64,000 bases of DNA from the NCBI RefSeq assembly GCF_000585335.1, contig NZ_KK073872.1, positions 1,913,283 through 1,977,282 of the forward strand. Direction: 5' to 3'. The stretch comes from Cloacibacillus evryensis DSM 19522. GTDB taxonomy: Bacteria; Synergistota; Synergistia; Synergistales; Synergistaceae. The translations under genes were made by a program, and so were the position numbers. Shown here piece by piece: positions 37,316-62,085 of this stretch (the first letter of the stretch is position 1; the number at the start of each line of letters is the position of its first letter). Under the pieces are notes generated by a model. That model searched no databases and was not told where the DNA came from. It worked only from the letters and a program-made list of their open reading frames with translations.

Positions 37316-38425
37316 TCAATCAGTCAGTTTATAGACCGCCATCAGCTCGGCGAAAAGCTCTATGCCGGCGTCGGCTTTTCTCGCCGCGGAATAGCTGAAT
37401 TCCACGTGGTCTTCCTGGCCGCCCTTGGTCGGGATGGAGTCGGCGCTGACCTGCATCGTCATGCCGCGCAGTTTATCGAGCAGCGCCGAGACGCGCGGCG
37501 TTTCGCCGAAGAGCTCCGCAACGTCCCAGCCCATCTCCGCGAGGATCACGCTGAGCAGGTCCATCACGTATCCGACCTGCGTGTTGCTGCAGTTGCAGCC
37601 CATGACCGCCTCAAAGGTGCCGTCTTCAAGCTCGAAGAGGTTGGGATTGTCGCAGGTGATGTTGTTTTCAAAGTCAAGTATCCCGCGGATGAATTCCACA
37701 GTCTCTTCGCAGGCCGCGAGCTTGTCGCGGTCCACCTTGCCGGCGGCGGCTTTGCGGTAATTTTCAAAGAGTCTCTGGAATCTGATGAAGGAGACGACGG
37801 CGATGCTCTGGCTCATCGTCGAGCCGTTCATCTGGGCGAGGACCTCTTTGCATTCAAGCGTGAAGGTCTCCGCCATGCCCTTCGCGCGATAGGCTTCGGC
37901 GGCGGGCACGACTTTGCCGTCAACGATCGCTCTCGCGCCGGGAAGCCCAGCGACGGTCATGATGTTCTGCGCGATCGGCGCGAGGTCGCTGAGTCCCGTG
38001 GAGCCGTCGCCGTGGACCGCGGGCGATATGCCGTTGTTGAACATATCGAGCAGTCTTTCGATCAGCGACACGCGCACGGCCGAAAAGGCGCGGCAGAGGA
38101 TGTTGGCGCGCAGCAGGAGTTCGGCGCGCGTCACCTCGGCGGGAAGAAAGTCGCCGAATCCAGCGCCGTGGACGTAAGGCAGCGTCTTGTTCCACTCGAT
38201 ATGCTTGTCTGGCGGCACCGGCACGTCCTTCAATGCGCCCAGGCCTGTGTTGATGCCGTATATGGTCGGCGCTCCCTCTTTAAGCCATTCGTCTATCTGT
38301 CCGCGGCTCTTCTCGCAGCGCGCGCGGGCTTCGTCTGAAATTTTTACCTGAGGATGCTCGTCGCTCAGCATTTTGGCGACGTCGGCAACTGTCAGGCTGT
38401 AGCCGTCCAATATGTATGTTCCCAT
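37316..38425 (-). CDS. HAL/PAL-superfamily lyase-like protein, subunit A (no MIO triad)
   Basis: The 369 residues look like a histidine/phenylalanine ammonia-lyase with its middle deleted. Present: the catalytic Tyr loop TIYGINTGLGALKD (Tyr56, Lys66, Asp67), the region that normally forms the MIO group (GDGSTGLSDLAPIAQ, about 140-153) without Ala-Ser-Gly, CDNPNLFELEDG (equivalent of SDNPL) and DSIPTKGGQEDHVEF near the C-terminus. Missing: the RPHPGQ and RVQDxYSLR segments, which occur in the neighbouring gene. I infer a two-subunit lyase. Canonical members are about 500 residues. ATG 38425 follows GGGAGG, 13 bases from the partner gene. Confidence 0.75.
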   Translation of the reverse strand: MGTYILDGYSLTVADVAKMLSDEHPQVKISDEARARCEKSRGQIDEWLKEGAPTIYGINTGLGALKDVPVPPDKHIEWNKTLPYVHGAGFGDFLPAEVTRAELLLRANILCRAFSAVRVSLIERLLDMFNNGISPAVHGDGSTGLSDLAPIAQNIMTVAGLPGARAIVDGKVVPAAEAYRAKGMAETFTLECKEVLAQMNGSTMSQSIAVVSFIRFQRLFENYRKAAAGKVDRDKLAACEETVEFIRGILDFENNITCDNPNLFELEDGTFEAVMGCNCSNTQVGYVMDLLSVILAEMGWDVAELFGETPRVSALLDKLRGMTMQVSADSIPTKGGQEDHVEFSYSAARKADAGIELFAELMAVYKLTD

Positions 38426-38438
38426 AATGATGCCTCCC

Positions 38439-39674
38439 CTACTTCAGTGTCCCGACGGCGGCTTCCACCGCTTTGAGGATCACGCCGTCAGCCGTCAGAC
38501 GTTCCGCCGCGATCATATCCGGCGCGACGAAGCGGTTCTCGTCCATCATGGAGATCTCGCCGCGCAGGCATTTATGCGCCGCGGCCGTGCCGGCGCCGCA
38601 GGGGTAGCCGGGTATCTTCGCGTGTACGATGTCGAGCGCCTGCGCCGACATCAGGATCTCCACGGCCATTACGCGGTTCAGCTTCCTGATGAGTTCAAAC
38701 AGTTTGCTCACCGAGTAATAGGCGAGAGAAACGTTTTTCCTCTTTATCGCCGCCGCCGGCAGCGCCAGAAGCTTCAGTTCCGCCGTCTCCGCGGCCTGCG
38801 TCGACTGTATGATGGGGAAGCCGTAATTGATGCCAAGTTCGTCGGGAACGAGGTTCATCGGCAGCCCGTATGAAAGGCGCGTATCGCAGAGGCGGAAGCT
38901 GCGGCGCTCGCTGGTATGGGCAAGGTCGGCCAGCGCCGTCGCCAGCGCGTCCATCGCGTATTCCGTCCTGTAAAGAGTATGCGCGTGGCTGTTCCAGTCG
39001 GAGGCGACCTGCGCGGCGCACCAGTGGAAGATGTCGCGCACCCCGCCGTGCGTCTGCGGCGTCGCGCGCACGCAGATGGCGTCCTGCACCCTCGGCTTCT
39101 TATCGTAGCCGAAGGCGTAGCGGCCCTCGTCGGTGGTAAGTTTCGAGCCCGCCGTGACGCGGCGCACATTTTCCGCCGATTCGATCTGTCCCGGATAGGG
39201 GCGGCCCAGCTCCTGGAGTCGCTTGTCGAAAGCGCCGAGCTCTCCGCGGATGGCTTCGAGGTTCATCGATACCGCGACGTCCGCGGTCTTTATCGCGCGT
39301 CCAGCGACGGCGCAGATATACATCGCCATACCCGTCGTCACACAGTTGCTTTTAGCGACGAAGTCCCTCTCTTCCACGGGCAGTTCTCCACCGGTTTCCA
39401 GAGCCTCGGCGAGCATCTCCGCCAGCGTCCCTTCATCCGCGTCCTCATAGGGCAGTTCGGGCAGGACCTGCCCCTTCAGGCGTTCTTCCGCCGCCTTCTG
39501 AAGCTTGAGGCAGCCCTTTTCCGCCGCACCCTCGGCCAAAAGTTCAAGGATGACGGCGACGCAGCCGTCGGGAAGCGTCTCCTTCTTTGTGCAGCATTCC
39601 GTGTTGACGACCGGTTCACGTGAGCCGCCGCGGCGAGCCGCCAGGATATCGTCGATCCACTGCAAATTTTCCAA
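38439..39674 (-). CDS. HAL/PAL-superfamily lyase-like protein, subunit B (complementary segments)
   Basis: The protein (411 residues) carries the family parts lacking in subunit A: SMNLEAIRGELGAFDKRLQE, GRPYPGQIESAENVRRV (RPHPGQ-like), PRVQDAICVRATPQTHGGV, and TSERRSFRLCDTRLSYGLPM. It lacks the N-terminal Tyr loop, any MIO region and the QEDH segment. The N-terminal 120 residues are not recognised. TTG 39674 is chosen because GGAGGTG precedes it by 7 bases; the upstream in-frame ATG has no ribosome site. Probably a structural or substrate partner of subunit A in a mixed tetramer. Confidence 0.65.
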   Translation of the reverse strand: MENLQWIDDILAARRGGSREPVVNTECCTKKETLPDGCVAVILELLAEGAAEKGCLKLQKAAEERLKGQVLPELPYEDADEGTLAEMLAEALETGGELPVEERDFVAKSNCVTTGMAMYICAVAGRAIKTADVAVSMNLEAIRGELGAFDKRLQELGRPYPGQIESAENVRRVTAGSKLTTDEGRYAFGYDKKPRVQDAICVRATPQTHGGVRDIFHWCAAQVASDWNSHAHTLYRTEYAMDALATALADLAHTSERRSFRLCDTRLSYGLPMNLVPDELGINYGFPIIQSTQAAETAELKLLALPAAAIKRKNVSLAYYSVSKLFELIRKLNRVMAVEILMSAQALDIVHAKIPGYPCGAGTAAAHKCLRGEISMMDENRFVAPDMIAAERLTADGVILKAVEAAVGTLK

Positions 39675-39973: not shown

Positions 39974-42900
39974 ATGGGGACAAAAGTGGTCAGGATAAAG
40001 TTGATGGGCGCACCTGAAATAGCGATCGACGGCACCCCCGTCAGACTGCCCTTCCGTCAGGCCGACGCGCTGATCTATTACCTTGCCGTTACCGGCTCCG
40101 CCGCTAAGACAAAGCTCTGCGACCTCCTGTGGGGAAGCAAATGCACCGACGAAAAGGCAAAATCCAATCTGCGCAACACCGTCTATGTGATCAGGAAAGC
40201 GTTCGGCGGCGACTTCATCGACGAACCGGCACGACAGACGATGGCGCTGAATCCCCGACGCCAGATAGAAAGCGACCTTCAAAGCTATATGGAGGGCGAA
40301 GCCCCTGACTGGGAAGACTTCCTCGGCGGTTTTTATCTGAAGGACAACGAAGAATTCAGCGAGTGGACCGAGGCTACGGCGCGGCAGGTCAAAGAGAGCT
40401 ACTGCCGGCGGCTCAGGGAAAGGATAGCGGCGGCCTACGACGCGCGCGACTTCACCCTCTGCCGTTCGCTCTGCGACTCGCTCGCCGGCGCCGATAAGTA
40501 TGACGAATACGCCTGCCGCCGCCGGATGATGATGCTGAAAAGCGAGGGCAAAGAGGCGCAGGCGCAGAAAATATATGAAGAGCTGAGAAAACTTTTGCGG
40601 GACGACCTCGCGCAGGAACCTGAGGCCGAAACGACGCGGCTCGCTCGCGAAATAAAAAGCCGCCCGCCCCGCGCGGCGCGGCCCGACCTCGGCATTGAGA
40701 CGAGACGCGCCGCCGCGGGAGCGGGGTTTTTCTACGGACGCGAGGCGGAGCTGGCAAATATCTCTCGCACGCTGCGCCTTTTCATGGGAAACGCGCCCGC
40801 CGCGAGCATCGTGGTAAAGGGCGAAATGGGGATCGGAAAGTCCGCGCTAATGGAAGAGGCGCTGCGCCGCACGGCGGCGGGCGACGCCGCGCTGATATCG
40901 GCACGCTGTTATCAGGCGGAAGAGAGCTTTCTGCTCAAACCGTGGTACGACATTTTTGAACAGCTCCTGTCATCCCTATCGAACGACGTCTCCGAGGAGG
41001 CACGCACGCTGAGAAAAGCGGTGACTTCGCTCTTCCCGAGCGCGGATTCCGTCGTCGCGCCCGCAGACGAACTTTTCTCCGCCTGGGGAGAATATTTTCT
41101 CGTCCGGGCGCTTGTCAAGTACTGCGCCGGCAGCCGCCTGATCCTCAAGATAGACGACATCCAGTGGGCCGACCCCGCGAGCCTCGCGCTGATCCGCAAC
41201 ATCGTCACGATGGACAAAAACCGAGCCATCCTCTTCGTCATGGGCTGCCGGAACGACGCCCCCGCAGCGACGGAGCGGCTGACGAGCGGCCTGAAATTGG
41301 CGGGTTTACTGGAGGAATACGATCTGGAGCGCTTCACGCCGGAACAGACCGCCGACTTCGCGAAGAAGTTCCTGCCGCGCCGCGGCTTCGACGCCGCATT
41401 CGGCAGTTCGCTCTTTCGCGAGACGGAGGGCAACCCGCTCTTCATAACGGAGACGCTGAACAACATATCCTTCAGCGGCTCGCTTGCCGGCTTCACGCCG
41501 AAACTGGGCGACGTCATCCGCCAGCGCATCCTCGGCGTCGAAGGAGAACCGCGCAAGGCGCTCGACCTGATCTCGATGATGCCGGACGGCGCGGCCTTCG
41601 AAACGCTGGCGCGCATCTCCGGCAAAGAGCCGGCCGGGCTCGTGGATGATCTCGAACAACTGATAGAGCGAAAACTAATCCGCGAAGAGGCGGCCTCCGG
41701 CGGCGTCATCTTCCGTTTCAGCCACCAGAAGATCAGGGAATACACATACGAAAACATCCCCCTCGTCAGAAGAAGGCTGCTGCATGAAAAGATCGCCCTC
41801 TACTTTGAGAGCACCCTGGCCGCGCAGCCTCACGGCGCTTTCGTCTTCCCGAAACTCATCTATCACTTCGAGAAGAGCCGCCTGCTGAAAAAATATCTCG
41901 AATACGTCATAAAGAATATCATCGGCTACCTCAACATAACGCAGGAATACTTCCCCACCGGCGGAGACGCCGCCCAACCGCTCATACTGAGCGGCGAGAA
42001 CGGCGTATCCGTGCTGGACATGAACAACATCGAAAGCTATTTCCAGAGCGTGGAGCGAAAGATAACGGAGGACCCCGCCCCCTTCCGCGACGAAGAGGGG
42101 CAGGCGCTGCTTTCGGAATTCTACGTCCTCCAGGCCAGGCATTACACCCATAACCTGGGCTACGCGCGCGCGCGGGAGTGCATCGCGAAAATCCGCGAGA
42201 TCAACGGTTCCTGCGCGACGGCGGCGCAGCGCGGATACATTTTAAAGGCCAACTATCATCTCAGCTCCATCTGCATGGACAGGATGGAGATCGCGCTTCT
42301 GCTGCGCACCGCCGACGAATCGGCGCGGCTCGCGGAAATAGACGGAGACCGCAACTGGAAGGCGGCGTGGCTGCGCATAAGCGGGATGTCGCGCGCCTTT
42401 GCGGGAAACTACGGCGAGGCCGTCCGGCTGCTGGAAGAGGCGGCGGCGCTCTTTTCCTCCTTCGGCGATACGGCGGCGTACCGCTACTCCCTCTGCGCCT
42501 GTTACGCCTGGCTCGGCGAGGCGAAGCGGAACCAGTTCGATTTCACGGAGGCCGAGCGCTGGCATGAACGCGCGGTCGGCCTCTGCCGCGAGGCCGAGGC
42601 GCGCGGAGGCGCGGCGCTTATTTACACATTATACGCGCAGTCTCTCGCCGACAGCGTGCTCTCCGGTCACGAATGCGACGAGGCAAAGCTGCGCCGCGTC
42701 CTGAAAAGGGCCCGCGCGTTCTTCGACAAATTCCATCTGCGCTGGTATCGCGGCGTCGCCTGCGCCTATTCCGCGCTCGCCGCCTGCAAAGCCGGCTCTT
42801 ACGAAGAGGCCGCCGACTGCCTTGCGGAGGCGCGCGCCGCCGCGGAGCTTCTCGACAGCGATTACGAACGCTGCGTCGCGGACCGCGTCTCGGCGCAGAT

Positions 42901-43048
42901 CAAAGCCATCCTCGCGCAAAACGGCGAAGGCACGGAAACGCTGGCCGCTTTAGTCAATGAAGATATCGAGTTCTATAAGGAAAGGGCGCTCCGTGTGACG
43001 GAACGCCTCTCGCTGCCGATAGAAAAAGCCTGCCTCGAAGGGCTGTAA
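39974..43048 (+). CDS. BTAD-AAA-TPR transcriptional regulator (SARP/MalT-like)
   Basis: A 1024-residue regulator. Residues 1-95 form an OmpR-like winged helix (VRIKLMGAPEIAIDGTPVRL, LIYYLAVTGS, NLRNTVYVIRKAFG); 96-235 form the bacterial transcriptional activator domain; 255-560 form an AAA-16 ATPase with Walker A VVKGEMGIGKSALMEEALRR and Walker B LILKIDDIQWADPASLAL; the rest is TPR-like helices that usually bind an inducer. The ATP-dependent design suggests a ligand-activated switch. It is divergent from the HAL-like pair, which is the probable target. No C-terminal LuxR domain is visible. A GAAAGGAAA-type ribosome site precedes the start. Confidence 0.85.
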   Translation: MGTKVVRIKLMGAPEIAIDGTPVRLPFRQADALIYYLAVTGSAAKTKLCDLLWGSKCTDEKAKSNLRNTVYVIRKAFGGDFIDEPARQTMALNPRRQIESDLQSYMEGEAPDWEDFLGGFYLKDNEEFSEWTEATARQVKESYCRRLRERIAAAYDARDFTLCRSLCDSLAGADKYDEYACRRRMMMLKSEGKEAQAQKIYEELRKLLRDDLAQEPEAETTRLAREIKSRPPRAARPDLGIETRRAAAGAGFFYGREAELANISRTLRLFMGNAPAASIVVKGEMGIGKSALMEEALRRTAAGDAALISARCYQAEESFLLKPWYDIFEQLLSSLSNDVSEEARTLRKAVTSLFPSADSVVAPADELFSAWGEYFLVRALVKYCAGSRLILKIDDIQWADPASLALIRNIVTMDKNRAILFVMGCRNDAPAATERLTSGLKLAGLLEEYDLERFTPEQTADFAKKFLPRRGFDAAFGSSLFRETEGNPLFITETLNNISFSGSLAGFTPKLGDVIRQRILGVEGEPRKALDLISMMPDGAAFETLARISGKEPAGLVDDLEQLIERKLIREEAASGGVIFRFSHQKIREYTYENIPLVRRRLLHEKIALYFESTLAAQPHGAFVFPKLIYHFEKSRLLKKYLEYVIKNIIGYLNITQEYFPTGGDAAQPLILSGENGVSVLDMNNIESYFQSVERKITEDPAPFRDEEGQALLSEFYVLQARHYTHNLGYARARECIAKIREINGSCATAAQRGYILKANYHLSSICMDRMEIALLLRTADESARLAEIDGDRNWKAAWLRISGMSRAFAGNYGEAVRLLEEAAALFSSFGDTAAYRYSLCACYAWLGEAKRNQFDFTEAERWHERAVGLCREAEARGGAALIYTLYAQSLADSVLSGHECDEAKLRRVLKRARAFFDKFHLRWYRGVACAYSALAACKAGSYEEAADCLAEARAAAELLDSDYERCVADRVSAQIKAILAQNGEGTETLAALVNEDIEFYKERALRVTERLSLPIEKACLEGL

Positions 43049-43166: not shown

Positions 43167-44111
43167 CTAATCTTCTTTTGCGGAATTTTTGGGGAATACT
43201 TCGCGGATCGATCGTAAAAACAGCGGGAGAGCGTGGTTTTCGTTATTTGCCCTGTAATAGCAATTCATGGAAATGACGCAGTCTGGGTCTTCGAGCGGTA
43301 TGATCGTGCTGTCGTGCAGGTTGATAGTCTTCTCGCCGAAACAGAGGGGCACCACGCTGACGCCGCCGGATTGCAGGATCGCCGTTTCAAGGGTGTTCAT
43401 CTGGTGGGGGAATCGTACTTTTTTAGCCTCGACGCCGCGTTTTCGCATTAAAGAAAGAACAAGTTCCGTAAAGTTCGTGATCGAATCGTTCTCGTCCTCT
43501 ACGGAGACAAAAAGGTCGTCCTTAAATTCGTCGAGCCTGACCGACGAACGCCCAGCCAGGCGATGTTCCAAACTCATAGCGACGGCCAGCCTTTCCCGGG
43601 CGAACTCGTATCTGCATATTTGGTCGTTGATCTCATCGATACTGATCGTCATGCTGATGATGGCGATATCCGCTTCTCCGTTGCACATTCCTATAAAACA
43701 ATCTATCGGCTGAAACGACTTCGCCCTCACCTCCACGTTGGGAAAGGTCTTCGCAAAATGCGCCTTGATCGGGTCGATATATTTTTCGGCCCAATAATAG
43801 GGGCTGTTTATCTTGAGCGTTCCGCTTATATCTATCCCGTCATTGCATGAGGTCAACCGCTTGATCTGTTCGTTGGCGCTGTTGAACGCTTTCAATATCT
43901 CCTTGAAAGATTCATAGACAATCTGCCCCGCGGGAGTTATGCTCACGCCCTTCGTATTGCGGATGAAAAGCTTTGCGTCCACCATCTCTTCAATTATGGA
44001 AATATGCCTGCTGAGAGCGGGCTGTGTAATATACAGATGATTAGCTGTCTTTGTGAAGTTCAGATTCTCGGCTAAGGTCACATATTCCTCGATATAGTTC
44101 AGCTTTATCAT
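43167..44111 (-). CDS. LysR-family transcriptional regulator
   Basis: A 314-residue LysR regulator: N-terminal helix-turn-helix (LAENLNFTKTANHLYITQPA, LSRHISIIEEM) and a C-terminal periplasmic-binding-like effector domain (residues 90-300, with WAEKYIDPIKAHFAKTFPNV and GGVSVVPLCFGEKTI). It is divergent from the ten-gene catabolic operon that begins at 44352 and is very probably its regulator, with the inducer being the substrate or an intermediate. The shared region 44112-44351 (240 bases) contains no other gene; it includes CATTATAACGGAG and a related ATTATAACGAAG repeat (about 44143-44176). Confidence 0.92.
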   Translation of the reverse strand: MIKLNYIEEYVTLAENLNFTKTANHLYITQPALSRHISIIEEMVDAKLFIRNTKGVSITPAGQIVYESFKEILKAFNSANEQIKRLTSCNDGIDISGTLKINSPYYWAEKYIDPIKAHFAKTFPNVEVRAKSFQPIDCFIGMCNGEADIAIISMTISIDEINDQICRYEFARERLAVAMSLEHRLAGRSSVRLDEFKDDLFVSVEDENDSITNFTELVLSLMRKRGVEAKKVRFPHQMNTLETAILQSGGVSVVPLCFGEKTINLHDSTIIPLEDPDCVISMNCYYRANNENHALPLFLRSIREVFPKNSAKED

Positions 44112-44351
44112 GATATGCCGTTATCTCCTTCATTTTATTCATTATAACGGAGAACACCGCTAATTATAACGAAGAACGACGACTGTTACAAGCGGCGGCT
44201 TCAAATGCGGTTTTATCCCCCTCGCGGCGCTGGCTATACGCTCCCGTTATATCAACGTCAATAAAAGAATTTCACTAATGCCGCAGATTTGAGGATAATG
44301 CTCGTGAAGAAAATAATTAACTTAAATCGTTTGAGAAGGGGGTATACGTTC

Positions 44352-45548
44352 GTGAAATTCAATAAATCTTTCATCCCATACGGCGGATACTATTCAACGC
44401 CGTTCGCTCGCTGGAACGGATCATTGAAGGCTGAAAATTCAGTGGTGCTGGCTGCGGACACGGCAAGAAGGTGGTTTGTGGAAAAGCAGATCGATCCGAC
44501 CGTGCTGGATTTTATCTACTATGGGATAACTACGGCTCAGCCGTTGTCGTTTTACTCTCACGTCTATTCAAGCGCGGTCATCCTCGACCGCAAGAAAAAC
44601 ATCCCTGGGATACAGGTGAGCCAGGTATGCGCGACCTCCTGCACGACCATGGGGTCGGCGGCGGCCGATGTTGAAAACGGAGCCTATGAAACAGTATACG
44701 CTCTGGCGGGAGACCGCTGCTCCAGTACGCCTCTGCTGGTGGTGCCCAGCCCGAATAACGGCTCGGTGGTCACGGAAAATATCGTTACCGACAATTTCAA
44801 GCGCGACCCGTCGCCGGGCGCGGGCTTGGCGATGTTCGAGACGGCGGAAGCGGTGGCGAAGCAAGCCGGCATAACCAGAGAGGAATGCGACGATATCGCG
44901 CTTCTCAGATATGAGCAATATTTGGATGCGACGGCAAACGGAAGGGCGTTCCAGAAACGCTACATGTATCCTGTGGAAATAAAAGAAAGAAAGCAGATAA
45001 AGCGGATCGACGCCGACGAGGGAGTCGCCGCCAGGACAAAAGAGGGCCTGGCCGCCTATAAAACGGTCATTGAAGGCGGAGTGCTGACAAGCGGCAGCCA
45101 ATGCCACCCCGCCGACGGCAACTGCGGCGTTATCGTAACGACGAAAGAAAACGCCGGTAAGCTGAGCGCGGACGGCACCGTAACGGTTCAGATCATATCC
45201 TACGGCGTGGTCAGGGTCGCCCCCGGACGCATGGCTTCCGCGCTGGTCCCCGCGCTGACGCTGACGTTAAAAGACGCCGGCATCGGCGCAGGCGAACTGA
45301 AACAGGTAAAAACGCACAATCCCTTTATCGTAAACGACATCTACCTGGGAAAAGAGATGGGAATAGACCAAAAGCATATAAACAACTATGGCTCTCCCAT
45401 GATCTTCGGGCATCCCCAGGCGCCTACCGCCGGCAGGGCCATCATCGAGCTTATCGAAGCCCTGGCCGTACAGGGCGGAGGCTATGGCGCCTTTACCGGA
45501 TGCGCGGCCGGCGATCTCGGAGCCTCCTTGATCGTCAAAGTGTATTAG
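44352..45548 (+). CDS. Thiolase-family acyltransferase
   Basis: First gene of the catabolic operon. The 398-residue protein has the thiolase fold with the nucleophilic Cys in IQVSQVCATSCTTMGSAAAD, an Asn-Pro-Phe variant of the NEAF motif (KTHNPFIVNDIYLGKEMG), the second-Cys loop near the end (GAFTGCAAGDLGASLIVK), and GHPQAPTAGRAII for the conserved His. It would cleave or form a 3-oxoacyl-CoA. The substitution of NEAF by NPFI marks a divergent branch, so a lipid-transfer-like or specialised thiolase is also possible. GTG 44352 follows AAGGGGG; upstream in-frame ATGs lack ribosome sites. Confidence 0.82.
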   Translation: MKFNKSFIPYGGYYSTPFARWNGSLKAENSVVLAADTARRWFVEKQIDPTVLDFIYYGITTAQPLSFYSHVYSSAVILDRKKNIPGIQVSQVCATSCTTMGSAAADVENGAYETVYALAGDRCSSTPLLVVPSPNNGSVVTENIVTDNFKRDPSPGAGLAMFETAEAVAKQAGITREECDDIALLRYEQYLDATANGRAFQKRYMYPVEIKERKQIKRIDADEGVAARTKEGLAAYKTVIEGGVLTSGSQCHPADGNCGVIVTTKENAGKLSADGTVTVQIISYGVVRVAPGRMASALVPALTLTLKDAGIGAGELKQVKTHNPFIVNDIYLGKEMGIDQKHINNYGSPMIFGHPQAPTAGRAIIELIEALAVQGGGYGAFTGCAAGDLGASLIVKVY

Positions 45549-45572
45549 TTTTTCAAACGGAAGGAAGATAAC

Positions 45573-46889
45573 ATGGCTGATTTGAAAAAGACAGAAAGAA
45601 TACCGGCTCCCGCCTTCATCCCCAAGTTCGGCGCTCTGTCGGGGATGCGGGTCCTGCTGACGGGGACCATCGTCGCGGGGCCGTTTACCGCCACACTGCT
45701 GGCAGAAAACGGCGCGGAGGTCATCCACGCTGAGCGTCCCGGCGGAGACAATTACCGCCTGCAATCGCCGGTGGTGACTTTGGACGGCGACGATATCGTG
45801 ATAGCCGGCCCGGAAGTGCCGATGGACAAAAAAGTAAGCACCGCCTGGATACAGGAGGGACGCAACAAACTGAGCCTGACCTTTAACTGGGACTTGAGGA
45901 TACCCGAAGCGAAAGAAGTATTTTTCGCTTTGATCAGGCAGGTCGACGTCTATGTGGAAAATATCCTCTGGACCGAGAAACTGGGGATCAGGGACGAGGA
46001 GCTGCTCAGCGTGAACCCGCAGTTGGTCATCTGCCATATCAGCGGATTCGGCCGCAAGGAGTTCGGTGAAGGCGACGGCTGGAGCACCCGGCGCTGCTAT
46101 GACCCCATCGCGCAGATGGAGGGCGGCTGGATGAATCTCAACGGCTTTCCCGACGGTCCGCCGGTATGCGGAGCTTCGTTCATAAACGACTATATTACGG
46201 CCTACTACGCAACTATCGGGATAGTGATGGCCTACAACAGCGCCCAAAAGACCGGGCGGGGGCAAGTCATCGACGCGTCTCAGATAGAATCCATGAGCAA
46301 GGGGCTCAACGACTGCTTCGTCAACTACTTCCTGCTTGGCATGATCAAGGAAAGATCGGGCAACGCCACAGGCATATTCCAGCCCGGCGACCTCTATAAG
46401 GCAAAAGATAACTACCTCTATATCGGCAGTTCGGGAGAGGCGTCCTACAACAAGTTTGTCAAAGCCATAGGCACCAGCGCCGAACGTTTCCCGTACCATA
46501 CGTGCGCCTCTTCAAAGGAAGCCATCAATTCGCCGGAAGGGCTGGAGTTTAAAAAGTATATCCAGGATTGGGTAAAATCGCGCACCGCTCAGGAAGGTTT
46601 CGAGCATCTAAGCAAATTCAACGTGGCCTGCGCCATCCCCAAGAACATCAAGGAAGTGGCGGAAAGCGCGCATTACCAGGTGCGCAACGATTTCATCGAG
46701 TATGTCGACGAGACCCTGGGGAAAAAGGTAAAGGCCTTCGGCTTCGCCCCCAAAATGGGAGGGACTCCGCAGAAAATATGGCGCGGCGGCCCGAAGATCG
46801 GGCAGGATACCGAAGTCATCCTCAAAACCCTGGCCGGACTTGGCGATCCTGAAATGGCCGCCCTTAAAGAGAAGGGCATCATCGACTGA
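45573..46889 (+). CDS. Family III CoA-transferase (CaiB/BaiF-like)
   Basis: Moves CoA between carboxylic acids by a mixed-anhydride mechanism. The 438 residues show the N-terminal CoA-binding region (SGMRVLLTGTIVAGPFTATL, LAENGAEVIHAERPGGD) and a catalytic Asp in CYDPIAQMEGGWMNLNGFPD. In the operon it would activate a free acid, for example a ring-opened product, to the CoA thioester at no ATP cost. It starts 24 bases after the thiolase. Confidence 0.9.
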   Translation: MADLKKTERIPAPAFIPKFGALSGMRVLLTGTIVAGPFTATLLAENGAEVIHAERPGGDNYRLQSPVVTLDGDDIVIAGPEVPMDKKVSTAWIQEGRNKLSLTFNWDLRIPEAKEVFFALIRQVDVYVENILWTEKLGIRDEELLSVNPQLVICHISGFGRKEFGEGDGWSTRRCYDPIAQMEGGWMNLNGFPDGPPVCGASFINDYITAYYATIGIVMAYNSAQKTGRGQVIDASQIESMSKGLNDCFVNYFLLGMIKERSGNATGIFQPGDLYKAKDNYLYIGSSGEASYNKFVKAIGTSAERFPYHTCASSKEAINSPEGLEFKKYIQDWVKSRTAQEGFEHLSKFNVACAIPKNIKEVAESAHYQVRNDFIEYVDETLGKKVKAFGFAPKMGGTPQKIWRGGPKIGQDTEVILKTLAGLGDPEMAALKEKGIID

Positions 46890-46915
46890 TTTTGCAGATA
46901 CAGGAGGGTAAAAAA

Positions 46916-47779
46916 ATGGTTATTAAGAAGATCGGGATATTGGGAGCCGGGGCCATGGGCGGAGGCATCGCCCAACTGGCGGCTCAAAGAGGATTTGAAG
47001 TGATTCTTGGCGACGTCGATATCAAGTATGTCGACGGAGCGGTCGCCAGAATGGAAAAATTAATGGCCAGAAGCGTGGAAAAGGGAAAAATCACGGCCGA
47101 AGAAAAGGACGCCGCTCTTGCTCGCATCACAAAGACGGCAAAGTTAGAGGACTTCGCCGCGGCCGACTTTTTCATCGAAGCGGTCGTAGAAGATTTCGCC
47201 GTTAAAACAGCCGCCCTGGCGAAAGCGGAAAAGATTTTAAGGCCCGAGGTCGTCATGGCGTCCAACACTTCTTCCATGTCCATCACGGGGCTGGGAGCCG
47301 CCACCGGCCACCCGGAGAAGTTCATCGGCACGCACTTTTTCAATCCGGCCCCGGTAATGCGCTTGTGCGAGATCATCCGCGGCGCGCTGACCAGCGACGA
47401 TACTTACGCGACCGCCGCCGGACTGGCGACGGCGCTGGGCAAGACCCCGGTCGAAGTAAAGAAAGACACCCCTGGCTTCATCGTCAACCGCTGCATGATC
47501 CCCCAGTTTATCGAGGCTATCCGCCTGGTCGACGAAGGAGTCGCGACGCCGCAGGATATAGACACCGCCGTCAAACTGGGGCTGAATTACCCCATGGGGC
47601 CTTTCGAGCTCATGGACCGCACCGGGATAGACATCGCGCTGCTGACTATGGACTACCTGTACTCCGAAACGGGAAGAGAGCTCTGGAAAGCGCCACATGC
47701 CATAAAGAGCATGATCCGGGCCGGAAGGCTGGGCGATAAGACAGGGGCCGGCTGGTACGCGAAGGAGAAAACGGCATGA
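46916..47779 (+). CDS. 3-hydroxyacyl-CoA dehydrogenase
   Basis: Oxidises L-3-hydroxyacyl-CoA to 3-oxoacyl-CoA with NAD. The 287 residues show the NAD motif IGILGAGAMGGGIAQLAAQ, the catalytic His in IGTHFFNPAPVMRLCEII, and the C-terminal NYPMGPFELMDRTGIDIAL region. It is a stand-alone HBD type, not a multifunctional FadB. ATG 46916 follows AGGAGGG. The stop overlaps the next start by 4 bases. Confidence 0.94.
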   Translation: MVIKKIGILGAGAMGGGIAQLAAQRGFEVILGDVDIKYVDGAVARMEKLMARSVEKGKITAEEKDAALARITKTAKLEDFAAADFFIEAVVEDFAVKTAALAKAEKILRPEVVMASNTSSMSITGLGAATGHPEKFIGTHFFNPAPVMRLCEIIRGALTSDDTYATAAGLATALGKTPVEVKKDTPGFIVNRCMIPQFIEAIRLVDEGVATPQDIDTAVKLGLNYPMGPFELMDRTGIDIALLTMDYLYSETGRELWKAPHAIKSMIRAGRLGDKTGAGWYAKEKTA

Positions 47780-48555
47780 CCTACGAGACTATTCTGCTTA
47801 ACAAAGAAAACGGCGTGGCGACCATTACCCTGAACCGCCCTCCGATGAACCCTCTGAACAGCCGTTTGTTCAAAGAGCTGTACGACGCCGCCGACGATGT
47901 CGATATGGATCCGACGGTGAAGGTCGTAATAATTACCGGAGCCGGCTCCAAAGCCTTTGCCGCCGGAGCCGACGTCTCGGAGATGGCCAACTTGAGCCCG
48001 GTGGAAATATACGGCTTCAATATGGTTTCCAGAAAGGCCTTTGAGAAGATCGAAAATATCGGCAAGCCCGTCATCGCGGCCATGGCAGGCATCACTTTCG
48101 GCGGCGGCTGCGAACTGGCCCTTTGCTGCGACTTCCGCATCGCGGCGGAAAATCTCAAAGTCGCCTTCCCAGAAACGGGACTGGGGATCATCCCCGGCGG
48201 CGGAGCGACCGTGCGGCTGCCCAAGCTTATCGGAGCCAGCAAGGCGAAGGAGCTGATCTACACGGGGGCGGCGGTCGACGCGGCGACGGCGGAAAAGCTG
48301 GGCCTCGCGGATAAAGTGGTACCCGTGGACGCGCTGGTCGAAGAAGCCCGTACTTTTGCCGCCAAAATGGCAAAAAAGCCGGCCGTAGCGCTGAAGATGG
48401 CCAAAGAATCGATCCAGACCGGAGCCAATATGGACATCAATTCGGCGTTGAATTTTGAAAACCAGAGCTTTATTACCGCGTTTGCCAGCGCTGACGCCCA
48501 GGAAGGCCTCCATGCCTTTTTGGAGAAGCGCAAGCCCGATTATAAAGACAAATAA
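47776..48555 (+). CDS. Enoyl-CoA hydratase/isomerase (crotonase family)
   Basis: Hydrates trans-2-enoyl-CoA in beta-oxidation. The 259 residues show AGSKAFAAGADVSEMANLSP for the oxyanion hole, GGGCELALCCDFRIAAE with the first catalytic Glu, and AFPETGLGIIPGGGATVRLP with the second. Both glutamates make this a true hydratase, in contrast to the divergent crotonase later in the operon. It begins inside the last codon of the dehydrogenase gene (ATGA). Confidence 0.93.
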   Translation: MTYETILLNKENGVATITLNRPPMNPLNSRLFKELYDAADDVDMDPTVKVVIITGAGSKAFAAGADVSEMANLSPVEIYGFNMVSRKAFEKIENIGKPVIAAMAGITFGGGCELALCCDFRIAAENLKVAFPETGLGIIPGGGATVRLPKLIGASKAKELIYTGAAVDAATAEKLGLADKVVPVDALVEEARTFAAKMAKKPAVALKMAKESIQTGANMDINSALNFENQSFITAFASADAQEGLHAFLEKRKPDYKDK

Positions 48556-48575
48556 AAAAGTAAAGGAGCAGGAAA

Positions 48576-49814
48576 ATGGGAAATAACGAAGTCAAAAAAC
48601 TCACCATGGAAGAAAGGCTTGAAGCCTTTAAGAAGAAGGTTGGAGTCAACAGGGTAAACCGGGCCGTCGTCGAGGCAGGGCTGCCGCGCGGCCTGTATCT
48701 TTCAAACCATAACGCCTCCAGCGACAACATCCGCAGATGGGCGCTCGGAGTAGGCGAACTGAATCCGCGCTACATAGACTCAGAATATGCGAAAGCTACG
48801 AAATACGGACGCCTTGTCGCGCCGCCGTTGTTCCTCCAGAGCGTATACTTTGCGGGCGCGGCCCCCGAAACGACAGAAATAGACGAGTATGCGCGCCCCT
48901 TCCACAGCGGCAGCGAATGGGAATTTTACAAGCCGGTACTCGAGGGCGATGAAGTCGATTACAACGCGCTGCGCCTCATCGACGTCAAGCTGGTGCCGAG
49001 CAAGTTTGCCGGCCAGATGATGGTCATGACCTCCGCCAGCCAGTACACCAACCAGCACGGAGAGACGGTAGGCCTGATAAAGTTCTTCTTCCATCAGTCC
49101 TCCAGCGACGAAGAGGTCAAGAAAATAGGCAAATACGACAAACTGGTCGAGCCCTATAAGTATACCGACGAAGAGCTGCACAACATACAGGAAGAACAGT
49201 CAAAAGAAGAAATGCGCGGGAGCCTTCCGCGGTACTGGGAAGATGTAAAGGAAGGCGACTCCGTAGGCCCGCTCGTCGTCGGCCCCCATACCGTTATGGA
49301 CAGCGTCGGCCATTTCTCGGCCATATGGGGAGGCTTCCCTCTCGGTACGTGCGACCGTTCATACAAAGCCTGGGCGAAAAAAGACGGCAACGGCATCGCG
49401 GTCTACGACGCGCGGATAAACGCTTACGTGAACGCAGACCTGCCTCACCTGGATCATGACCTCGCGCGGGCTGTCGGGGCTCCCGGCGCCTACGATAACG
49501 GAGGCGGCAGAGAATGCATAGCTTCCATCCTCATGACAAACTGGATGGGAGACGCCGGCTTCCTCTGGAAGTATTCGATCCAGTTCCGCCGCTTCAACGT
49601 CTACGGCGATACGACATGGTACCGCGGCACGGTGGTAAGGAAGTACGAGGACGACGGCAAATACTGCGTGGATATCGACCACTGGGGTGAAAACCAGCGC
49701 GGCGAGAAAAATACCGCCGGCAAGGCGACCATCATCCTTCCCTCAAGAGAGCACGGCGAAGTAAAGTATCCGGCTCCCCGTACGCTGGACGATATTTACC
49801 CGGGCAAGCAGTAA
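48576..49814 (+). CDS. MaoC-like double-hotdog protein
   Basis: A 412-residue protein with an N-terminal FAS1/hotdog-like half (NIRRWALGVGELNPRYIDSE, YGRLVAPPLFL) and a second hotdog half (from about residue 205: DVKEGDSVGPLVVGPHTV). Double-hotdog MaoC proteins hydrate branched or cyclic enoyl-CoA esters. The usual hydratase motif D-x-N-P-x-H is present as ELNPRYID with Tyr in place of His, so activity is uncertain. It could act on an unusual enoyl-CoA produced in this pathway. It starts 20 bases after the crotonase. Confidence 0.7.
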   Translation: MGNNEVKKLTMEERLEAFKKKVGVNRVNRAVVEAGLPRGLYLSNHNASSDNIRRWALGVGELNPRYIDSEYAKATKYGRLVAPPLFLQSVYFAGAAPETTEIDEYARPFHSGSEWEFYKPVLEGDEVDYNALRLIDVKLVPSKFAGQMMVMTSASQYTNQHGETVGLIKFFFHQSSSDEEVKKIGKYDKLVEPYKYTDEELHNIQEEQSKEEMRGSLPRYWEDVKEGDSVGPLVVGPHTVMDSVGHFSAIWGGFPLGTCDRSYKAWAKKDGNGIAVYDARINAYVNADLPHLDHDLARAVGAPGAYDNGGGRECIASILMTNWMGDAGFLWKYSIQFRRFNVYGDTTWYRGTVVRKYEDDGKYCVDIDHWGENQRGEKNTAGKATIILPSREHGEVKYPAPRTLDDIYPGKQ

Positions 49815-49891
49815 GGAAGTTCCGTCAGGTAAGGCGGAGCACGAGGAGGTGACCGCCCGAGCCCAGCAAATCAAGCGGAGGAGTAAAGAGG

Positions 49892-49960
49892 ATGCGCTTC
49901 CATTCGTTTGCCGACCACGCACGTCTATTTTGTCGGCCGGATCTGCCAGCAGTCAGATGA
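49892..49960 (+). CDS. Possible 22-codon small ORF in the operon
   Basis: ATG 49892 with a strong GGAGGAGTAAAGAGG ribosome site opens a 22-codon frame ending at 49960 (MRFHSFADHARLFCRPDLPA...). It lies in the only sizeable gap of the operon (49815-50025). I see no family; it may be a leader, a decayed gene start or noise. Confidence 0.25.
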   Translation: MRFHSFADHARLFCRPDLPAVR

Positions 49961-50025
49961 GCAGATGTCAGTCACGGTAAGACAAGACAAGAAAAGAAGA
50001 GAAATAAAAAACAGGAGGACATAAT

Positions 50026-51300
50026 ATGGACACCAAAAATTCAAACAAAAACGTAGATTTCTCAGCATTGGTATCGCCTTTTAAATTCGGCCCCTTCACG
50101 CTTCCCAGCAGAACGGCCGTCGCCCCGATGAACAACATGCGTCAGCAGGACGGCTACCCGAACATGGATTCGCTCTGCTTCTATACCCGCAGAGCCAGGG
50201 GCGGTTACGGCCTTATCATCGCCGAGCCGGTATCGACGGGCAAGTTCCAGGACGAGCTCAACCCTTATCTTCAGACGAGGCTTTACACGCCCGAGCACGC
50301 CAAAGCATGGAGGCTCGTAGTCGAGGGCGTGCACTCTTTCGGAGGCCGCATCATCGCGCAGCTCGCCGGTCTGGGCGCTGGGCGCCAGCATTGGGACCCC
50401 ACCGGAAAGACACGCCCGGCGGCGGCTTCTCCCATCCCCTTTGAAGTGACGAAGGACCACCTGCCGAAGAACTTCGACAAGGACCCCAACATTGAGATGC
50501 ACCTGAAAGGCGACATGCCGCGGGAGCTGACCAGAGCTGAGATATATAAGGCGATAGGAGATTACTACATGTCCACAAGAATGGCCATCATGGCCGGCTT
50601 CGACGGCGTAGAGTACCATACGTGCCACGGCTACTCGGGACACAATTTCTTATCGCCCAATCAGAATTTCCGTACGGACGAGTTCGGCGGAAGCTGGGAG
50701 AACAGGACGCGCTTCGCCAGAGAATCCTTCAAGCAGATAATGCGCGCCATCAGGGACGAGGGCGTCGAGGGCAAGTTCGTGGCAGGCTGCAGGACCAGCG
50801 CCGCAGAGCATACGCCGGGAGGCTTTACATACGAAGATATGGTCAAATTCCACAAGATGCTGATCGAGCTCGGAAGCTCCTTTGTTGACCTCTCCGACAG
50901 CGCCGGCTATGAGAGATGGGACATCTTCATTCCCGATGAAGACAAGATGCCTCTTAAAATCGAGCAGGCACACTATTTTGACAAGGAACTTGACGTGCCG
51001 GTCCTGATTCCTTCGGTCCACGACCCTGTGCTCGCCGCTCAGCTCGCAAACGAAACAAAGAACATCATCTTCTCGCACGGACGTCAGTCCCTTGCCGATC
51101 CCGACTGGACGAACAAAATAAGGGACGGAAAAGTGGACGAGATCAACAGGTGCAAGCGCTGCAATATCGGCTGCATGCTCAAGTACGGCATTCACGCCGG
51201 GGTACAGCTGCGCTGCATCATCAACCCTGAGATGGGCTTCGAAATGTACGACAGCGCCAACTACCCCAAGCCGATGGCGCCCGGCAAGTATCTGCGCTAA
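50026..51300 (+). CDS. Old-yellow-enzyme-type FMN oxidoreductase with Fe-S motif, no FAD domain
   Basis: The 424 residues form an FMN TIM barrel (SPFKFGPFTLPSRTAVAPMN, GLIIAEPVSTGKFQDELNPY, GVEYHTCHGYSGHNFLSPN, NQNFRTDEFGGSWENRTRF) followed by CKRCNIGCMLKYGIHAG and RCIINPEMG, the CxxC-x3-C-x13-C site for a 4Fe-4S cluster seen in 2,4-dienoyl-CoA reductase and BaiCD-like enzymes. Relatives continue with an FAD/NAD domain of about 240 residues that is absent here, so electrons must come from another protein, possibly the Etf. In the operon it would reduce an alkene or ring double bond. RBS CAGGAGGAC. Confidence 0.88.
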   Translation: MDTKNSNKNVDFSALVSPFKFGPFTLPSRTAVAPMNNMRQQDGYPNMDSLCFYTRRARGGYGLIIAEPVSTGKFQDELNPYLQTRLYTPEHAKAWRLVVEGVHSFGGRIIAQLAGLGAGRQHWDPTGKTRPAAASPIPFEVTKDHLPKNFDKDPNIEMHLKGDMPRELTRAEIYKAIGDYYMSTRMAIMAGFDGVEYHTCHGYSGHNFLSPNQNFRTDEFGGSWENRTRFARESFKQIMRAIRDEGVEGKFVAGCRTSAAEHTPGGFTYEDMVKFHKMLIELGSSFVDLSDSAGYERWDIFIPDEDKMPLKIEQAHYFDKELDVPVLIPSVHDPVLAAQLANETKNIIFSHGRQSLADPDWTNKIRDGKVDEINRCKRCNIGCMLKYGIHAGVQLRCIINPEMGFEMYDSANYPKPMAPGKYLR

Positions 51301-51423
51301 AACCGTAAATGCGGAGGGGGGAGCTCATCCCCCCTTTTTTGATTTTTCAACATCACAAGCAGTACAGCCATACTCTTGCGATAAAGCATAGACATAATGA
51401 AGATTTTAAGGAGGCAACATGAT

Positions 51424-52230
51424 ATGGCCGCTCAAAAGCCTGTCGCCAGACCAAAATTTGAGGAATATAAAGAAAAATACAAAGACTATATAACTATGGA
51501 GCGCAAAAACGGCATCATCGTGCTGCGTATGCATCATGACGACGGGCCGGTCCTGTGGAACGAGATGATGCACTGCGCGCTGCCGCAGGCTTTCCACGAT
51601 ATCGGGAACGACCCCGAGAATCATGTGATGATCCTAACCTCCACAGATCCTTACTGGATCGGAGTGATGGACCACGACGCGGATTTCGTGATGGATTACA
51701 ATACCTATTACGTTGACGCGACAAAATTGCTTGAAAACCTGATTTTTGACGTGGACATCCCCACCATCGCCGCGGTGAACGGCCCCGGTTTTCATACGGA
51801 AATAGCGCTGTTGTGCGATATGACTCTGTGTACGGACGACGTCGTCTTTCAGGACGGACACTTTTCATTGGGGTTCGTGCCGGGCGACGGGCAGCTAGTG
51901 ACTCTTCAGGAGCTGATCGGCGCAAAACGCGCCGCCCATATGGTGTACACCGGCGAGAATATCGACGCTAAAACCGCTTTGGAGTGGGGAATGATCAATG
52001 AAGTCGTCGCAAAGGATAAACTGATGGCGCGCGCATTGGAGCTGGCGGAAAAGATCATGAAGCAGACGCGCGCGACCCGCTGTATGACGCATCATCTGTT
52101 GACGCGCGACTGGAAGCGCCGCCTGATCAACGACTTCCAATTCCACATAACCCAGGAAGGATTTGCCTCTCTCATCGACAGACCGCAGCATGACCTCAAC
52201 AAGCTAAGAGAGAAGTGGGAAGAAGAATGA
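51424..52230 (+). CDS. Crotonase-superfamily beta-diketone hydrolase-like (6-oxocamphor hydrolase type)
   Basis: The 268 residues are not a normal hydratase. They follow 6-oxocamphor hydrolase in several places: DDGPVLWNEMMHCALPQAFH, ENHVMILTSTDPYWIG, IAAVNGPGFHTEIALLCDM and FQDGHFSLGFVPGDGQLVTL. The residues corresponding to its active-site His (GFHTEI), His (DGHF) and Asp (PGDG) are kept, while the two hydratase glutamates are not. This suggests hydrolytic C-C cleavage of a cyclic 1,3-diketone. ATG 51424 lies 9 bases after AGGAGG; the upstream ATG 51397 lacks one. The stop overlaps the next gene (ATGA). Confidence 0.75.
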   Translation: MAAQKPVARPKFEEYKEKYKDYITMERKNGIIVLRMHHDDGPVLWNEMMHCALPQAFHDIGNDPENHVMILTSTDPYWIGVMDHDADFVMDYNTYYVDATKLLENLIFDVDIPTIAAVNGPGFHTEIALLCDMTLCTDDVVFQDGHFSLGFVPGDGQLVTLQELIGAKRAAHMVYTGENIDAKTALEWGMINEVVAKDKLMARALELAEKIMKQTRATRCMTHHLLTRDWKRRLINDFQFHITQEGFASLIDRPQHDLNKLREKWEEE

Positions 52231-53372
52231 TTTTTACTGAAAAACATGATCTTATCAGAAAGCTGGCCCGCGATTTCGCGGAAACCGAGCTGACCGGTAC
52301 GATCCTTGACGAAATAGAAGAAACAGGACAGTATCCCAAGGAAATACTCGACAAAATGGGGAAGGCCGGATTTTTTGGGATCAAGACACCCAGGGAATAT
52401 GGCGGACAGGGCTCCGACAATATATCCTACGTCATCGTCCTTGAGGAGATCGCCCGCGTGAGCGCCGTGAGCGCCATATGGGCGGGAACGCCCAACGCCC
52501 TCGGCAGCGGCCCGCTGCTGCTGGCAGGGACCGAAGAGCAGTTGAAAAAATACCTGACGCCGCTTGCCCTTGGGGAAAAGACTATATCCTTTGCGCTTAC
52601 CGAGCCCGGCGCCGGTTCCGACGCCGGAGGCACGGTCACTTACGCCGCGAAAGACGGCGATTATTATGTGCTCAACGGCCGCAAATCATTTATAACGGGC
52701 GCGCCGGTGGCGGACTGGGCCATCGTCTACGCGAAGACTGACCGCAGGCAGAAGGGGTCGAAGGGCATTTCCGCCTTCATCGTAGATATGAAGCTGCCCG
52801 GCGTCTCCTGCGGCAAGGCCGAACGTAAAATGGGCATCATCGGCTGCCCGACCTCCGATATCATTCTTGAGGACGTGCGCGTACACAAGGACGACCTGTT
52901 GGGCGAGGAAAACATGGGGTTCCAGAACGCCATGAAAACGCTCGACGTCGGACGCATCGGCGTGGGCGCCACGAGCATCGGCGTCGCGCAGGGCGCTTTC
53001 GACGAGGCCGTGAAATACGCTAAAGAACGCAAGCAGTTTGGCCGCCGTATCGCCGATTTTCAGGGCGTCAGCTTCATGATCGCGGATATGGCGACGAAGC
53101 TGCAGGCCGCGAAGGAGCTCGTATACAGAGCCGCGCAGCTCAAGGACACGAACAGCCCCGACGCGGGCGTGGCGGCTTCGATGGCGAAGTATTACGCCTC
53201 AGAGGCGTGCAACGAGATCGCGGCCAAGGCTGTGCAGATCCACGGCGGATACGGGTTTATCAAGGACTACAAGGTCGAGCGTTTTTACCGCGACTGCCGC
53301 GTTTACACCATCTTCGAGGGAACTTCCCAGGTACAGCAGATGGTGATCGCGGGCAGCATTATCGGGAGGTGA
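52227..53372 (+). CDS. Acyl-CoA dehydrogenase
   Basis: An FAD enzyme that puts a 2,3-double bond into acyl-CoA (or reduces one, if reversed) and passes electrons to Etf. The 381 residues show ALTEPGAGSDAGGTVTYAAK, FITGAPVADWAIVYAKTDR, GAFDEAVKYAKERKQFGRRI, and the catalytic Glu in TIFEGTSQVQQMVIAG. It is followed by etfB after five bases and by etfA. Coupling to a ferredoxin-fused EtfA could make this an electron-bifurcating pair, like the caffeyl-CoA reductase complex; that is inference. Confidence 0.93.
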   Translation: MIFTEKHDLIRKLARDFAETELTGTILDEIEETGQYPKEILDKMGKAGFFGIKTPREYGGQGSDNISYVIVLEEIARVSAVSAIWAGTPNALGSGPLLLAGTEEQLKKYLTPLALGEKTISFALTEPGAGSDAGGTVTYAAKDGDYYVLNGRKSFITGAPVADWAIVYAKTDRRQKGSKGISAFIVDMKLPGVSCGKAERKMGIIGCPTSDIILEDVRVHKDDLLGEENMGFQNAMKTLDVGRIGVGATSIGVAQGAFDEAVKYAKERKQFGRRIADFQGVSFMIADMATKLQAAKELVYRAAQLKDTNSPDAGVAASMAKYYASEACNEIAAKAVQIHGGYGFIKDYKVERFYRDCRVYTIFEGTSQVQQMVIAGSIIGR

Positions 53373-53377
53373 TCATA

Positions 53378-54166
53378 ATGAAAATAATCGTTTTGGCAAA
53401 GCAGGTACCGGATACGAACGAGGTCAAGATCGACCCCGTAAAGGGAACGCTTATCCGCGAAGGAGTGCGCTCGATACTGAATCCCGACGACGCCAACGCC
53501 CTTGAAGCGGCGCTCGAACTGAAAGATAAAAACCCCGGTACTACCGTTTCCGTTATGTCGATGGGGCCTCCACAGGCCAAATATATGCTCAGAGAATGCC
53601 TGGCGATGGGCGCGGACGACGCCTATCTGCTCTCCTCGCGCGCTTTTGGCGGCGCGGATACCTGCGCCACCTCCACCACTCTTGCCGCCGGCGTGCGGCA
53701 GCTCGGAGATTTTGACATTATCTTCGCCGGCCGCCAGGCGATCGACGGTGATACCGCGCAGGTAGGGCCGCAGACGGCGCGCCGCCTCGGCGTCCCGTCG
53801 GTCTCATACGTGCAGAAGGTCCGCAAGGTCGAGGAAAAGACGCTCACCGTGGAGCGCGCCCTCGAAGATGGTTTTGAGGTCATAGAGGTGCAGAAGCCCT
53901 GCCTGCTGACGGCGATCAAAGAGCTGAACAAGCCCCGCTACATGTCGGTCGGGCGGATCGAGGAGGCGTACAAAAAGGAGATCACTGTCTGGGACGAAGG
54001 CTCTCTGCATGTAACGCCCGACGAAGTGGGGCTCAAAGCCAGCCCGACCCAGGTGTTCCGCAGCTTTACCCCTCCGCCGAAGGGCGCGGGAGAGATGCTC
54101 GCCGGCACGATACCGGAAATGGCGGGCACGCTTGTGGCGAAGCTGACCGAAGAGCATGTGCTGTGA
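53378..54166 (+). CDS. etfB: Electron transfer flavoprotein beta subunit
   Basis: Binds AMP or FAD and forms Etf with EtfA. The 262 residues begin MKIIVLAKQVPDTNEVKIDP and show the signature FDIIFAGRQAIDGDTAQVGP followed by QTARRLGVPSVSYVQ, and LTAIKELNKPRYMSVGRI. ATG 53378 follows GGGAGGTGATC. The NPDDANALEAAL region is typical of bifurcating Etf families as well as classical ones. Confidence 0.95.
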   Translation: MKIIVLAKQVPDTNEVKIDPVKGTLIREGVRSILNPDDANALEAALELKDKNPGTTVSVMSMGPPQAKYMLRECLAMGADDAYLLSSRAFGGADTCATSTTLAAGVRQLGDFDIIFAGRQAIDGDTAQVGPQTARRLGVPSVSYVQKVRKVEEKTLTVERALEDGFEVIEVQKPCLLTAIKELNKPRYMSVGRIEEAYKKEITVWDEGSLHVTPDEVGLKASPTQVFRSFTPPPKGAGEMLAGTIPEMAGTLVAKLTEEHVL

Positions 54167-54201
54167 GCGATGCGTGGTAAATATAGAGAGGGAAATGACA
54201 A

Positions 54202-59250: not shown

Positions 59251-59261
59251 CGCTCTTCTCC

Positions 59262-61981: not shown

Positions 61982-62085
61982 GATTCTCTTCCTCGTGAAA
62001 TAAAATATTACGGACGGCGGGCAAAGGGAGGGAACGGAGACGCCCCCGCCCTTTGCCGTCATTGTTGTTTATCTGCCGTGAAAAG

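Follow-up and report, generated by a model that had tools for sequence, protein, structure and literature searches.

Two adjacent genes on the minus strand of the window (the whole stretch of 64,000 nucleotides that was analysed) encode what we call subunit A (37316-38425, 369 amino acids) and subunit B (38439-39674, 411 amino acids). They are separated by 13 bases, and B lies upstream of A in the direction of transcription. B begins at a TTG codon with a conserved Shine-Dalgarno sequence; the sister genome has the same TTG behind GGAGGTGCGAAAAG. Profile match and alignment identify both products as HAL-fold chains, and PF00221 (Lyase_aromatic) is the sole Pfam family that either of them matches. 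The best stretch of A covers profile positions 1-214 (E 6e-68), that of B positions 186-301 (E 6.4e-50), and both scores are far above the cut-off of 27.3 bits. The nearest NCBIfam models are of the HutH type, with scores under their curated cut-offs, and the best matches among solved structures are HAL, PAL or tyrosine aminomutase. An earlier reading made without database searches (the sequence-only reading) had placed a HAL/PAL-type pair at 37316-39674. Both frames are indeed found there, and the profile search, which could have sent A and B to other families, puts both in this one.

Three chains contribute to the active site of HAL: one gives Tyr53, His83, Asn195 and Glu414, the second Tyr280 and Arg283, and the third Phe329. 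His83 and Glu414 contact the imidazole. Members of the HAL/PAL family are homotetramers with four identical active sites, each made by three chains (PMC9002059). To place A and B in this scheme we aligned them with P. putida HAL, whose numbering is used throughout, and with T. denticola ergothionase. A aligns to HAL 1-212 and picks up again only at the SDNP and QEDH segments; most residues of about 213-281 and the C-terminal part are absent. Compared with solved structures, residues 1-220 of A match and the match resumes at the same two segments. The match of B to solved structures begins at about HAL 190 and runs through to the end, except for the SDNP/GNFHG part, which B lacks; B retains RPxPGQ, RVQD..R, SERR and the C-terminal domain, and QEDH is absent. 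A carries the equivalents of Tyr53, Lys63, Asp64, Asn76, His83, Asp145, Asn195, Glu414 and His416. B carries those of Gln277, Asp278 and Arg283 and is without the Tyr53 loop, the MIO loop, the 314-329 segment and the conserved Glu414. The set Tyr53/His83/Asn195/Glu414 is thus complete in A only, and Gln277/Arg283 occur in B only. In the chains' own numbering Tyr53, Lys63 and Glu414 correspond to Tyr56, Lys66 and Glu338 of A, and Arg283 to Arg203 of B.

Chance does not account for this division of residues: in 20 intact homologous pairs, drawn from the window's class and from several Firmicutes lineages, it never varies. Gln277, Asp278 and Arg283 are invariant in 23/23 B chains, and the corresponding region is deleted from all A chains. 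Two other positions have changed as consistently: Tyr280 is replaced by Ile in all 23 B chains, and Phe329 by Cys in all 20 intact A chains. A plain split of one gene into N- and C-terminal parts is ruled out, because the two halves overlap and interleave. The sequence-only reading had already seen about half of the family signatures in each gene, interleaved rather than N- and C-terminal, with the Tyr loop, an SDNP-like segment and QEDH in A and RPHPGQ-like, RVQD and SERR segments in B. The alignments confirm this description; the replacement of Tyr280 and Phe329 and the betaine context discussed below are additions to it.

Neither chain has the Ala-Ser-Gly triad from which MIO is made, again as first noticed. 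A reads GSTG-LSD where HAL reads GSVGASGD, which leaves a Leu-Ser dipeptide in place of the triad (20/20 intact A), and the MIO loop is absent from 23/23 B. Ergothionases also have two residues instead of the triad, Glu, Ala or Gln followed by Gly or Ala (EG/EA). The ergothionase of T. denticola (6s7j) is said to have been described by Maurer and colleagues in 2019 as a MIO-free trimethylamine lyase with the HAL fold.

A structure model was made from a fused B-A chain, obtained by reading through the closest sister pair that is in frame (G014, 86-91% identical; 28 rows). It has a mean pLDDT of 78 and a pTM of 0.75, and the four chains of a tetramer are not placed in it. The A part of the sister model superimposes over its whole length on HAL/PAL chains (Z 25.7-32, rmsd 2.4-3.0, 329-358 residues aligned). 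A therefore has the HAL fold by model, and B has it by sequence only. We also compared how confidently A folds alone and together with B, as a possible sign of a complex. The confidence is about 79 within the fused model and 82 for A folded alone; the GCNCSN segment of A rises from about 51-55 alone to 66-74 when fused, and the overall mean is slightly lower. This is no useful difference and counts neither for nor against a complex.

The genome of the window holds two such pairs, the one at 37316-39674 and a second at G000:C1:1982155-1984329, 31 kb apart. Both pairs also occur in one genome of the same genus and in one of the same family, and no further pair-bearing genome was found among 183 of the window's class. 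A scan of contigs from the genomes of 84,980 species yielded 17 further loci; the scan relies on two short peptides, and more distant pairs may have been missed. These loci belong to Cuneatibacter, Clostridium, Dethiosulfatibacter (two in one genome), Acidaminobacter, Paenibacillaceae, Tissierellales, Lawsonibacter, Pseudoflavonifractor and Devosia. B lies directly upstream of A at 23/23 loci. Adjacency is conserved across genomes, and no homologue of A without B was found.

The chains are longer in Paenibacillaceae, Clostridium and Acidaminobacter (A about 441-450 amino acids, B 485-518). The longer B chains keep more of the ancestral N-terminal region, and such sequences show stages of the reciprocal loss. 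At a few loci A is damaged: it is without its N-terminal half in Lawsonibacter and Pseudoflavonifractor and frameshifted in Devosia. Cuneatibacter has a second, frameshifted A after the intact one. These broken or extra A genes lie at positions 543-2172 of locus L058, 1016-2711 of L059, 5989-7247 of L060 and 7158-8253 of L044. In Lawsonibacter and Pseudoflavonifractor we found no separate gene for the missing N-terminus of A, only full-length relatives at 31-36% identity. A viral or plasmid origin of the pair was rejected: relatives of B were not found in viral contigs, and plasmids gave only ordinary HutH-like matches below 60% identity.

Both genes are under purifying selection. Comparisons between the three related genomes give dN/dS values of about 0.05-0.25 for both genes of both pairs; in the wider comparisons dS is near saturation. 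Hence neither A nor B is a decaying pseudogene. A pseudogene or a sequencing error is likewise ruled out by intact frames in the six copies of these three genomes and by the low dN/dS. In quick maximum-likelihood trees, built without bootstrap, A forms one clade and B forms one clade, each with a support of 100, and their inner subclades are mirrored. Pairwise distances among A chains correlate with those among B chains (Mantel r 0.951, 20 pairs; 0 of 5000 permutations as high), a correlation that is partly due to shared species history.

In the same trees B is sister to a HAL-like subfamily with an Ala-Cys-Gly triad (86), of which members are found at G000:C1:3114592-3116049 (L002) and at L012 and L073-L076. 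Ergothionases form one clade (99) separate from those of A and B; a derivation of the pair from ergothionase is thus unsupported, and the loss of MIO appears to be independent. By the tests that define them, the pair stands outside both the MIO lyases and the ergothionase clade, yet within the PF00221 superfamily. The trees also contain a second MIO-free HAL-like clade, full-length and with the triad missing (GSVGYL in most members), which is recovered as one clade at 100. Its loci are G000:C1:3432688-3434055 (L003), G000:C1:3017267-3018646 (L004), L078-L081, L083, L088, L090 and L092.

What do the neighbouring genes say about function? The only recognisable partner of the pair at 37316-39674 is a divergent gene for a BTAD/AAA-type transcriptional regulator (39974-43048, plus strand, 1024 amino acids), part of a recurring cluster. 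Homologues of this regulator adjoin pairs in the window's genome, the related genomes, Cuneatibacter and Acidaminobacter. The sequence-only reading took this regulator as a hint of a dedicated inducible pathway. That remark is partly borne out: BTAD-type regulators recur beside several pairs, though not beside all of them. The regulators of the two pairs in the window's genome (39974-43048 and L039 8807-11803), each divergent to its pair, are about 24% identical, which suggests different inducers. Beyond the first regulator, at 43167-55392, lies a row with a gene for a LysR-type regulator and thiolase-, CoA-transferase-, hydroxyacyl-CoA dehydrogenase-, enoyl-CoA hydratase-, OYE-, acyl-CoA dehydrogenase- and Etf-like genes, with weak similarity to carnitine CoA-transferase.

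The gene row of the second pair runs on the minus strand in the order B2, A2, XDH small, FAD and molybdenum subunits, BCCT transporter, ergothionase and a second XDH set. B2, A2 and their XDH genes lie just past the right end of the window, and the last part of the row occupies 58300-63998. Here we find, all on the minus strand, part of a BCCT betaine/carnitine/choline transporter gene (63600-63998, continuing to 65192; PF02028 1.5e-105 for the whole gene) and an ergothionase homologue (62086-63603, 505 amino acids; 1e-144 to T. denticola ergothionase 6s7j). They are followed by XDH-type subunits: a [2Fe-2S] subunit (61502-62062, 58% identical to the row's other XdhS), a molybdopterin subunit (59262-61505, NCBIfam XdhA-type 1.5e-154, under the curated cut-off) and a FAD subunit (58300-59466, 38% identical to the row's other XdhM over the matched stretch), whose true start is probably inside the open frame. 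The row is probably one operon, because gaps are small or genes overlap throughout, and the sister genome has the same row. The row as a whole, from 58300 to about 71272 (L039), probably serves ergothioneine catabolism and includes two molybdenum enzymes of XDH type.

Similar company is found elsewhere. A Clostridium genome has the order ergothionase, XDH, B, A, HutI (imidazolonepropionase). Acidaminobacter has an ergothionase and a BTAD regulator upstream of the pair. In Paenibacillaceae the pair is located away from the ergothionase/HutU cluster, and at 5/6 loci a gene for a putative quaternary-amine-binding protein, related to EgtUC and OsmF, adjoins B. An ergothionase at least 46% identical to the window's copy is present in 14/16 genomes with intact pairs; the other two are drafts of 1.8-2.1 Mb. 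No ergothionase was found in the three genomes with a broken A. In the window's class all three pair-bearing genomes are among the 26 ergothionase holders of 183 (naive chance 0.003, ignoring relatedness), and in Paenibacillaceae the five pair-bearing genomes are among the 33 holders of 346 (naive chance 6e-6, again ignoring relatedness). Most ergothionase holders are without any A/B pair.

Our preferred reading is that A and B are obligatory subunits of one MIO-free HAL-fold enzyme that serves an ergothioneine or histidine-betaine module by an ergothionase-like elimination. We give it a probability of about 0.5 as a whole, and its parts differ in strength. It is very likely that the architecture is that of a heteromeric HAL-fold enzyme, and likely that the pathway is ergothioneine/histidine-betaine catabolism. 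The named reaction, trimethylamine elimination from a histidine betaine, is tentative, with slightly less than an even chance.

Under the preferred reading a full-length HAL-like gene would have been duplicated, and each copy would then have lost parts of the site that the other retains. We count the grouping of B with the Ala-Cys-Gly subfamily toward such an origin. The Tyr53/His83/Asn195/Glu414 set would come from A together with the 329 segment, and Gln277/Arg283 would come from B. Reciprocal losses that are fixed and maintained under selection make it probable that both chains are required, and a HAL-type site would not form from either one by itself. The two chains complement each other in sequence, lie next to each other and co-evolve, which favours an A2B2 tetramer, probably with two active sites; a mixed tetramer of this type had also seemed plausible in the sequence-only reading. 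As HAL sites are built from three chains, such a tetramer would have two complete sites (A, B and a second A) and two empty ones, provided that the axis through which residue 329 reaches the site is the one relating the two A chains.

Candidate substrates are imidazole betaines, hercynine for example, and derivatives of ergothioneine. His83 and Glu414, kept in A, suggest an imidazole, and Arg283, kept in B, suggests a carboxylate. MIO is missing and position 280 is aliphatic, both as in ergothionase, which points to a leaving group that can depart without activation; the transporter genes nearby point to a quaternary amine. Taken together, these hints favour a trimethylamine lyase for a histidine betaine. 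Elimination would proceed without MIO as in ergothionase, trimethylamine already being a good leaving group. With Tyr280 and Phe329 lost, the site may also do other chemistry.

One could also argue that the same heteromeric enzyme acts after ergothionase and hydrates, isomerises or desulfurises thiourocanate or its product oxidised by XDH. We regard this as the main rival to a trimethylamine lyase, albeit an unlikely one. Thiourocanate is an acrylate analogue of urocanate, which the HAL fold already binds, and one paper mentions an earlier description of a thiourocanate desulfhydrase from gut bacteria (PMC13405746). The pair is nearly always found in ergothionase genomes, sometimes in the same gene row, and the Clostridium order puts B and A between XDH and HutI. 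That the pair is nested within the ergothionase holders fits a downstream step equally well. The arrangement in Paenibacillaceae speaks against it: there the pair lies apart from the ergothionase/HutU cluster, and the quaternary-amine-binding protein gene beside it suggests that the pair's own substrate is a quaternary amine.

It is considerably less probable that A alone is catalytic or ligand-binding and that B is structural, allosteric or regulatory, like a prozyme, with its Arg and Gln outside the site. There is a precedent in trypanosomatid deoxyhypusine synthase, which is activated 3000-fold by a dead paralogue within a heterotetramer (PMC3663545). The invariant Gln277, Asp278 and Arg283 of B, in a region that every A has deleted, count against a purely structural partner, which need not keep them. 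Least probable of all is a non-catalytic betaine sensor or storage protein, or a degraded remnant without function. The missing MIO, the loss of Tyr280 and Phe329, the halved A in two ergothionase-free genomes and the frameshift in Devosia would all agree with it, but both genes are constrained as described, two pairs are kept in parallel in three genomes, and residues of catalytic type are invariant.

Since distant bacteria have kept A and B together, alongside genes for ergothioneine breakdown, the pair is probably an undescribed two-part enzyme for ergothioneine or a closely related compound. We also hold it fairly likely, if less so than the pathway itself, that gut and soil bacteria use for an unrecognised ergothioneine/histidine-betaine step an obligate MIO-free heterotetramer of reciprocally degenerate paralogues, with sites only between the two. 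If true, this would be a new architecture of the HAL/PAL fold, in which complete sites exist only between such paralogues. One HAL-type active site divided over two genes by reciprocal loss would amount to natural subfunctionalisation inside an active site, and this division has lasted across distant bacteria. The pair is also a candidate for an extra enzyme of the ergothioneine module, which bears on the bacterial conversion of a dietary antioxidant to trimethylamine. In the open literature that we searched, no heteromeric or split HAL/PAL enzyme is described; subscription journals were mostly outside this search, and a precedent is possible.

Among known systems, ergothionase resembles the pair in its HAL fold, in a triad shortened to two residues as in A, in an aliphatic residue at position 280 like the Ile280 of B, and in Lys63, Asp64 and Asn76, which it has in common with A and which differ from HAL. 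It shares genomes with the pair and, in the case of the second pair, the gene row as well. It differs in being one full-length chain instead of two, in retaining Phe329 (Cys in A) and having Ser or Cys at position 195 (Asn in A), and in forming a clade separate from A and from B (SH-aLRT 99). HutH (P. putida 1b8f) and the other MIO-dependent lyases and aminomutases share PF00221 and the HAL fold. Tyr53, His83, Asn195, Arg283, Gln277 and Glu414 of HutH are all present in the pair, divided over A and B. HutH has MIO and forms a homotetramer whose four sites are equal, whereas A and B are without MIO, Tyr280 and Phe329, and part of the site is missing from each chain. Among the full-length relatives compared, the Ala-Cys-Gly subfamily scores highest for most A chains and for B. 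It has Lys63-Asp64 in common with A and an LSYGLP insertion in common with B, but its members are full-length, have lost neither Tyr280 nor Phe329 and carry an intact triad, which contains Cys. Trypanosomatid deoxyhypusine synthase, finally, is also made of two paralogues, one of them catalytically dead, in an obligate 2:2 tetramer (PMC3663545). It belongs to an unrelated family, and it combines an impaired chain with a dead one, whereas the losses in A and B are reciprocal.
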